Origin: Olsenella sp. An293
Lineage (GTDB): Bacteria > Actinomycetota > Coriobacteriia > Coriobacteriales > Atopobiaceae
Reading direction: 5' to 3'
Assembly (NCBI RefSeq): GCF_002159495.1
Contig: NZ_NFIT01000010.1
Coordinates: 1 to 64,000 of the forward strand
DNA: 64,000 nucleotides
Under the pieces are notes generated by a model. It had not been told where the DNA came from and did no database searches. It worked only from the letters and a program-made list of their open reading frames with translations. Within the stretch, counting starts at the first letter, position 1; every line of letters begins with the position of its first letter. Below, one piece after another: positions 23,306 to 39,942 of the stretch. A program made the position numbers and the translations under genes.

Positions 23306-23450
23306 TTGAGGGTATGTACACCGCCCCCTGAGGGTATGTACACGTTCCCGAGCCGTCCGTTCTTCTCGGCAGCCCTTCTACCAGCGGAAACGCAAATCGT
23401 CCAAGTTCGTGCGGTGTACATACCCTGAGGGGCGGTGTACATACCCTCAA
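23306..23450. repeat. Large inverted-repeat element with GTACA arms and GTTCTTCTCG loop (copy A)
   Basis: Left arm 23306-23343 and right arm 23414-23450 are reverse complements over about 37 bp with only a few mismatches. Each arm holds two copies of GAGGGTATGTACAC, so the element is a hairpin made of duplicated units. The 70-base loop contains GTTCTTCTCG at 23359-23368 inside CCGTCCGTTCTTCTCGGCAG. A related copy is at 39611-39756. It starts about 30 bp after dusB. Confidence 0.92.
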
Positions 23451-38891: not shown

Positions 38892-39614
38892 ATGTCCCAC
38901 AAGCCGCTGATCGGCTGCGTGCCGCTCGTCGACTACGGTCGCGAGAGCCTGTGGATGCTCCCGGGCTACTTCGACGCCGTCGCCGAGGCCGGCGGCGTGC
39001 CCGTGATGCTGCCGCTCACCTCCGACGCCGACGCCGTGGCCTGCCTGCTCGACGCCCTCGACGGGCTCGTCGTGACCGGCGGGCAGGACGTCGACCCCGC
39101 CCGCTACGGCGCGGGCGCCCCCGACCAGGCCGCCCTCTGCGGCGAGTTCTGCCGCGAGCGCGACGCCATGGAGGCGCTGCTCGTCCCGGCGGCGCTGGAG
39201 CGGGACCTGCCGCTGCTTGGCATCTGCCGCGGCCTCCAGGCCCTCAACGTCGTCCTGGGCGGCACGCTCTGGCAGGACCTGCCTGCGCAGCTGTCCTCCG
39301 AGGTCGAACACCATGGGAAGGCCCCCTACGAGAACCCGGTCCACGAGGTGGACGTGCTCCCCGGAACGCCGCTTTCGGCCTGCGTGGGCGCCGGCGCGCT
39401 GCCCGTCAACAGCTTCCACCACCAGGCGCTGCGAGACGTGGCACCGGGCCTGGAGGTCATGGCCACGGCGCCGGACGGCGTGGTCGAGGCCGTGTGGCGC
39501 CCCTCCTCGCGCTTCTGCTGGGCGGTCCAGTGGCACCCCGAGTTCTCGCACGCCGTCGACGAGCCCAGCCGCAAGATCTTCTCGGCGCTGGTGGACGCGG
39601 CCTCCCTCTCGTGA
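38892..39614 (+). CDS. Class I glutamine amidotransferase-like hydrolase (peptidase C26, PuuD-like)
   Basis: A 240-residue protein with the gamma-glutamyl hydrolase fold: GLVVTGGQDVDPARYG, nucleophile cysteine in LGICRGLQALNVVLGG, and the catalytic His/Glu in VQWHPEFSH. Relatives cleave gamma-glutamyl-GABA (PuuD) or similar gamma-glutamyl compounds. No putrescine genes are nearby, so the substrate is open. ATG 38892 follows GAAGGGAG; a GTG nine bases upstream (38883) is possible. Confidence 0.85.
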   Translation: MSHKPLIGCVPLVDYGRESLWMLPGYFDAVAEAGGVPVMLPLTSDADAVACLLDALDGLVVTGGQDVDPARYGAGAPDQAALCGEFCRERDAMEALLVPAALERDLPLLGICRGLQALNVVLGGTLWQDLPAQLSSEVEHHGKAPYENPVHEVDVLPGTPLSACVGAGALPVNSFHHQALRDVAPGLEVMATAPDGVVEAVWRPSSRFCWAVQWHPEFSHAVDEPSRKIFSALVDAASLS

Positions 39615-39756
39615 GGGTGTGTACACCGCCCCTGTAGGGTATGTACAGTCATCCGACCCGCCCGTTCTTCTCGGCAGCGCTCTGACCTGCGCCTTTGCGA
39701 GAAGTGCCACAGGGCCTGGCGTACATACCCCATAGGGGCGGTGTACACACCCTCAT
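39611..39756. repeat. Large inverted-repeat element with GTACA arms and GTTCTTCTCG loop (copy B)
   Basis: Arms 39611-39646 and 39721-39756 are reverse complements over 36 bp with few mismatches. Their units (GTGTGTACACCGCCCC and GGGTATGTAC) are those of copy A at 23306-23450. The loop has GTTCTTCTCG at 39664-39673 within CGCCCGTTCTTCTCGGCAGC, identical to copy A over 14 bases or more. The left arm overlaps the stop of the amidotransferase gene. Confidence 0.92.
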
Positions 39757-39942
39757 AAGGGGGCCGCTTCGTCCCCGCAAACGCCGCCGTGCCGCGCGTG
39801 TCTCGTGGATTTTCTGCCGAGAAGGACCGGAGCGCGCGCTTGTGCTACACTGCCACAGGTCAGTACCCCGTACCTGGCGGCCCGCCCACACCTGACGGCC
39901 ATCCCGGTTCGGGGCGAATCTATGTGAAAGGTGGTTTTGAAC

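Follow-up and report, generated by a model that had tools for sequence, protein, structure and literature searches.

The window analysed here, a stretch of 64,000 nucleotides from an Olsenella-like species of the Atopobiaceae (G000; genome of 2.3 Mb), contains two copies of an inverted element, which raises the question of what these elements are and which protein, if any, acts on them. In its typical form the element is built of a 14-bp unit, GAGGGTATGTACAC, which occurs twice per arm, 22 bp apart with a 7-8-bp spacer; the two arms face each other across a core of about 70 bp, such that the inner unit starts are 83-84 bp apart. Copy 1 (23308..23448), with dusB upstream and a hypothetical gene followed by hemW downstream, has a 70-bp core (23344..23413, plus strand) enclosed by arms of two units each. 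Its left outer (23308..23321, plus strand), left inner (23330..23343, plus strand) and right outer (23435..23448, minus strand) units match GAGGGTATGTACAC exactly, and the right inner unit (23414..23427, minus strand) has one mismatch. Copy 2 (39613..39754), flanked by an amidotransferase gene and rpsO-pnp, has a more degenerate set: one mismatch in the left outer unit (39613..39626, plus strand), two in the left inner (39635..39648, plus strand), three in the right inner (39719..39732, minus strand) and one in the right outer (39741..39754, minus strand), around a core (39649..39718, plus strand) oriented as in G006, G016 and G009. At up to two mismatches GAGGGTATGTACAC has seven sites in the window, all of them inside the pair, whereas shuffled sequences average 0.08, and hence a chance origin can be excluded.

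These unit matches confirm the pair of inverted elements with common arm units and core that an earlier, sequence-only reading of the window had described. The same is true of its arms of about 36-37 bp, each a direct duplication: the arm measures 14+8+14 = 36 bp in both copies, the right arm of copy 1 having a spacing of 21 rather than 22 bp. Of the two elements said to start right at the end of a gene, only copy 2 does so: the stop codon of the amidotransferase gene (TGA, 39612-39614) overlaps the edge of the element and is supplied by it, whereas copy 1 starts 34 bp past the dusB stop. The decamer GT(T/C)CTTCTCG, which is part of the core, occurs 36 times in the window versus once for the reversed control; some of these occurrences reflect codon usage and some are intergenic, and we left the decamer out of the evidence.

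Beyond the window, GAGGGTATGTACAC at up to two mismatches has 127 sites in the genome (64+63) versus 2 (0+2) for the reversed control, and a BLAST search with copy 1 against its own genome returns 118 aligned pieces at dozens of places. A single filter, which accepts pairs of inner units with at most five mismatches in all, yields at least 37 elements in G000, rather than two, and 121 across five related species (G000 37, G016 28, G018 22, G006 21 and G009 13), this set being drawn from the loci around BLAST matches of the element and not a census. Since the filter tolerates no more than five inner-unit mismatches, degenerate copies, such as that of G006 at the site of copy 1, are missed. The inner unit starts lie 83 or 84 bp apart in 116 of the 121 elements. 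The duplicated arm is the commonest form across the five species, with 101 of the 121 elements having a 2+2 arrangement, but 1+1, 1+2 and 2+1 forms also exist. We gave up a strict helical-turn spacing (21-22, 31-32, 83-84 and 93-95 bp) as a general rule, since in other species the period is 19 bp and the inner units are 71-80 bp apart.

In terms of placement, 118 of the 121 elements are intergenic (72 between tandem genes, 28 between convergent and 17 between divergent genes, and one at a contig edge) and three overlap a called gene, the gene positions coming from a home-made gene caller that put the start of the partner gene in G000 (discussed below) at the wrong place. Among the 37 elements of G000, 31 are no more than 90 bp from a called stop codon. 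The elements are, accordingly, dispersed extragenic copies of the kind that characterizes REPINs. Their host range is narrow: an exact scan for two tandem units, with one genome per GTDB species, recovers 67 stretches, all from uncultured Atopobiaceae or Olsenella sp. An285/An290; copy 1 as a BLAST query matches 18 of 40 genomes (its own included), all among the 25 genomes of the same genus, and none of the 15 from other families of the order; and the paired-unit pattern is present in 14 of 140 genomes of the family, every one of this genus. No element was found in the viral contigs searched with the tandem-unit pattern or in the plasmids and phages searched for it.

Comparison of orthologous sites indicates how stable these copies are. 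At the first site, with the gene order lepA-dusB-element-hypothetical gene-hemW in G000, the element is present in four of 30 loci (G000, G018, G016 and G009), degenerate in G006 and absent from the rest. At the second, with the order recO-amidotransferase-element-rpsO-pnp, it is again present in four of the 30 loci compared (G000, G006, G016 and G009); G018 lacks it though its rpsO side is 96% identical to that of G000. Thus, copies come and go between close relatives. The earlier reading of the elements as mobile, and as neither plain terminators nor typical MITEs, is partly supported by this presence and absence and by the many copies; what it did not foresee is the constraint on the units, the in-place inversion of the core and the bracketed nuclease-like gene. 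The second site is occupied by different intergenic arrays in two other species: a GTACTCACTTCCGGATTTGCG-like array in G022 (L196) and a GAGTGACGCGTTTCGACC-like array, in both orientations, in G011 (L193). Also at this site, GTGGATTTTCTGCCGAGAAGGACC (window 39803-39830, upstream of rpsO) is near-identical in seven aligned species, far above its surroundings, and has CGAGAAGGAC in common with the element core.

The one candidate that emerged for an autonomous relative with the same ends is a nuclease-like gene that lies between two elements, outside the window, at C1:252766-253716 of G000 (317 codons). It is part of a cluster at C1:247-254 kb, and the matching clusters in G018, G016 and G006 also bracket the gene. 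Close homologues (55-100% identical) are found in 20 of the 31 genus genomes; the copy in G041 is broken by a stop codon, G015 has a partial homologue and the best matches in the remaining 10 genomes are at most 43% identical. G009 and G013 have elements but no close homologue (their assemblies are 95% and 94% complete, respectively); hence, either elements are maintained in the absence of the gene or the gene escaped detection. The units that flank the gene differ by lineage and agree on both sides of it: GAGGGTATGTACAC in the G000 group, AGGGTACGTACAC in G042 and G021, CCGGGTACGTACAC in G011 and G022, TCGCATCGTGTACAC in G019, GCGTTGTGTACAC in G044, CGGTTATGCGCAA in G045 and GAGGTTATGCG in G005, with others in further lineages beyond this non-exhaustive list.

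In a blind comparison of the 450 bp upstream and downstream of each gene, a shared repeat at z>8 was recovered for 18 of 21 homologues versus 5 of 20 paralogues. Two of the three misses, G006 and G020, have units on both sides once these are sought, and the third is the broken G041 gene (L407), which the script had wrongly placed. The own-species unit is seen on both sides of 19 of 20 genes, the exception being G004, whose downstream copy has a variant unit; these units were picked by eye from the same flanks in which they were later counted, the independent tests being the blind flanks and a prediction made for G019. This prediction, the one genome-wide test stated in advance, covers the unit of that one species, which has 14 exact copies in G019, nine being at a distance from the gene and several forming pairs with a separation of 94-95 bp; it has no exact copy in 30 other genomes, each of which has 0-3 one-mismatch sites. 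Further, unit similarity tracks protein similarity over 17 rows (rho 0.46, reached by 0 of 2000 permutations), with three near-identical species omitted from the test. As a control for chance bracketing, none of the 62 genes of the window is bracketed; bracketing of further genes does occur in loci that were selected because they contain elements. We accordingly regard the association between element and gene as well supported. In the G000 cluster (L071 6342-8560, C1:251.8-254.1 kb; also L264 and L283) the elements also bracket a HicB-like gene, in both G000 and G018, and in the G018 cluster a Fic gene is likewise bracketed; still others are bracketed in the clusters of the G000 group.

The partner protein, of about 317 aa, is predicted to combine an AbiEi-like N-terminal fold with a Vsr/EDxHD-type nuclease domain. 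Sequence searches place it poorly: Pfam at E<=0.001 gives no family, NCBIfam, PADLOC and PHROGs give none for the two members searched, a search of phages gives no match and a plasmid collection gives two weak Collinsella matches. At E<=1, weak Pfam matches to REase_MTES_1575 are seen in 34 and to DUF559 in 14 of 38 homologues and paralogues. Across the alignment of these 38 (20 + 18 rows, with L407, L412 and one further row of the 41 genes absent), the invariant residues include H79, E182, D227, E238 and H245, of which the last four would correspond to the catalytic set. A profile search matches I-Bth0305I (3r3p) with E 0.00096. In the AlphaFold2 model (mean pLDDT 93.0), residues 179-294 superpose on the I-Bth0305I catalytic domain (3r3p) with Z 9.1 and an rmsd of 2.6 over 95 aligned residues, followed by a mitoribosomal chain (Z 7.4), Vsr (Z 7.3) and TnsA (Z 6.2). 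A separate model of the first 178 residues (pLDDT 91.9) best fits the AbiEi antitoxin 6y8q with Z 7.2, which is below the caution level of 8 (rmsd 3.5, 116 aligned), the next fit having 4.1. Foldseek alone returns nothing at E<=0.001 for either the full-length or the N-terminal model. The modelled structure and the alignment together point to both the catalytic-domain fold and the conserved acidic and histidine residues of an EDxHD/Vsr-type endonuclease.

The likeness to the EDxHD homing endonucleases lies in the catalytic fold; here there is no intron, the gene is flanked by repeat arrays dispersed in the genome and the N-terminus is AbiEi-like in place of homing-type DNA-binding modules. I-Bth0305I itself is reported to form a dimer on its target, which spans nearly 60 bp (PMC3943268). 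Likewise, the protein resembles the AbiEi antitoxins of type IV toxin-antitoxin systems in the predicted fold of its N-terminus but differs from them in the fusion to a nuclease-like domain and in having no PADLOC match.

Putting these observations together, we consider it fairly probable that the palindromes are dispersed non-coding elements whose 14-bp units a single nuclease-like protein recognises. We infer binding, cutting and mobilisation by the partner protein as follows: it would bind the units as paired blocks facing each other and would nick or cut at or near them; such cutting may once have spread the elements and might still help to keep or convert them. A rare inversion of the core in place would follow from the cutting, or from enzyme-free recombination or template switching between the arms. 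The system would thus work like a REPIN-RAYT pair in which an AbiEi-like/Vsr-like nuclease replaces the HUH transposase. No mobile intermediate of the element was seen.

The pattern of sequence change bears on this directly. At orthologous 2+2 sites (ungapped columns), mismatches amount to 13.2% in the flanks, 14.3% in the cores and 17.5% in the spacers, and to 4.9% in the inner and 5.8% in the outer units. A simulation of neutral change under the detection filter puts the units at an expected 10.9-12.9%; hence, the filter alone cannot explain their conservation. The core drifts at the rate of the flanks and its length is kept. As judged from sequence, the units therefore look like protein sites, and what is kept between them is the length, not the sequence of the core. 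The 16 pairs that contain G009 differ in their outer units at 8.06 of 28 positions, versus 3.95 in 58 other pairs, in a fixed register, and at 10.1-12.6% versus 2.3-5.6% with gaps allowed; the inner units, whose figures are detection-biased, barely show the effect (2.06 versus 1.41). That this species, without a close homologue of the partner gene, has more diverged outer units is suggestive only.

The constraint on units and not on cores could also reflect a host function unrelated to the nuclease. In one account of this kind, to which we give a distinctly smaller chance, the AbiEi-like protein, or some other factor, is a regulator that binds DNA and acts on its own gene via the arrays on either side, the dispersed copies being regulatory, looping or transcription-blocking sites of the host and the nuclease domain serving some other task. 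The AbiEi-like fold of the N-terminus would suit such a role, as would the location of most elements just past gene ends and the position of the nearest upstream array, which ends 175-348 nt before the start codon of the partner gene. However, self-regulation has no need of the downstream array, which starts 13-105 nt past the stop in 18 of 19 genes (661 nt in G006); the gain and loss of copies between close relatives is unlike fixed regulatory sites; and the nuclease residues are invariant.

Elements that follow gene ends might alternatively act as RNA, that is, as terminators or stabilising stem-loops in transcripts with the protein as a bystander. Indeed, both window copies fold better than their shuffles (z -3.4 to -4.6). 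Nevertheless, over 101 elements the left and right arms do not co-vary: spacers match at 4.54 of 8 positions versus 4.52 when permuted (p 0.43), and neither the outer (p 0.60) nor the inner (p 0.39) units match across the core. Among four species, G016 alone shows slightly matching spacers between arms (p 0.018), and units on one and the same arm are slightly matched to each other (p 0.005-0.006). Because the two arms do not co-vary, protein binding fits better than a hairpin. In addition, no T-tract is evident by eye at the element edges, and a search of seven loci against Rfam at E<=1 gives no family at its curated threshold; we read two sub-threshold matches, one of a hairpin to the MIR8622 miRNA model and the other to a viral frameshift element, as chance. 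We hence consider an RNA role improbable.

Being small, non-coding, dispersed and intergenic with inverted arms, the elements also resemble MITEs, and even their non-orthologous cores are related (65% identity versus about 49% for shuffled cores), as would be expected of a conventional MITE that derives from a DDE transposon, is now decaying and has no relation to the bracketed gene. Unlike in such elements, the number of arm units varies, inspection by eye of 38 copies and of two alignments with empty sites revealed no target-site duplication, and the units are conserved long after insertion; we therefore rate this origin as very unlikely.

At the first site, the core of copy 1 is, in alignment, the reverse complement of the G018, G016 and G009 cores, between the same arms and genes. 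This is not an isolated case: of 95 reciprocal-best orthologous pairs, scored between species only, 81 have the core in the same and 14 in the opposite orientation, and the flip is present in seven of 30 orthologous groups, window copy 1 among these and one of the seven weak (66%). Mean core identity is 86% in the opposite pairs once flipped back, 82% in same-orientation pairs and 65% between unrelated copies. A segment flipped between inverted repeats recalls an inverton, in which a recombinase would flip the core as a phase switch; yet frequent switching would give a roughly even mix rather than 81 of 95 pairs alike, and the inverted arms are common to all copies, such that this explanation has slightly less in its favor than even the MITE. 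The core does flip, but seldom, in contrast to an active phase switch, and it could do so by recombination or template switching with no dedicated enzyme.

Finally, that the elements are non-autonomous REPINs which depend on a RAYT (PF01797) encoded in their own genome is the least probable account of all. Although RAYT-type genes are present in 28 of the 31 genus genomes, no RAYT in the loci scanned is bracketed by GAGGGTATGTACAC units or lies closer than about 1.5-2 kb to an element (L251 and L222 come nearest, at about 4 and 5.6 kb), and on adjacency in the scanned loci we rejected RAYTs as the mobiliser. Close reading of ten RAYT loci showed that they often have other palindromes, such as GGGGACAGTCCCC, beside the gene. 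The RAYT-type PF01797 genes number 1-6 per genome (loci L242-L260), those of G000 being at C5:16597-16917 and C34:111178-111507.

We thus return to the pairing of the elements with the nuclease-like protein. REP-like repeats are common in bacteria. In those parts of the literature that we drew upon, the enzyme linked to them is the RAYT family of transposases. The present system resembles REPIN-RAYT pairs in its small dispersed extragenic palindromes, in the bracketing of the cognate gene by the same repeats, in the joint divergence of repeat and protein and in the presence of more than one lineage per genome. It differs from them in its protein, which is Vsr/EDxHD-like with an AbiEi-like N-terminus and not an HUH transposase (PF01797), in its arms of tandem 14-bp units around a core of about 70 bp, and in having no left/right co-variation, where compensatory changes are reported to be common in REPINs (PMC3116915). 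As it has neither the RAYT protein nor the arm co-variation by which REPIN-RAYT systems are defined, it is not a member of that class but one that would work alike. No published description of the element or of its pairing with a nuclease was found in the literature covered, which excludes most subscription papers and all bioRxiv preprints.

Paralogues of the partner protein have repeats of their own. One at about 40% identity (L408, L413, L417 and L421) has 60-75-bp palindromes on both sides, which are species-specific and alike within a species; L408 lies at C3:35079-35963 of G000 and has relatives in G011, G022, G016 and G013. At a fifth locus of this paralogue, L425, there is a palindrome downstream and a partial stem upstream. 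Among these five loci, L408 and L421 alone reach z>8 in the blind test, and the stem of L408 has three matches in the G000 DNA examined, all at its own locus. The paralogues L410, L422 and L416 have other repeats in both flanks at z>8, namely GTTGT..GCAGTTTTT palindromes and GCTTAGGTGAGC arrays. Given the palindromes of the about 40% paralogue, bracketing may be a trait of the wider family, with genome-wide dispersal as a special case.

We advance more tentatively, at somewhat less than even chances, the broader proposal that there is a family of AbiEi-Vsr-like nucleases bracketed by lineage-specific, fast-changing palindromes, that one lineage or more has spread its recognition arrays over whole genomes, and that this represents a second, independent REP solution. 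If true, it would constitute a new class of nuclease-driven miniature element, and a genus-wide case with an unrelated protein would suggest that the combination of scattered repeats with one tame enzyme arose more than once. The lineages would then provide about 14 natural protein/site pairs in which to study changes in DNA specificity, and the system would open the effects of such enzymes on their hosts, good or bad, to testing.
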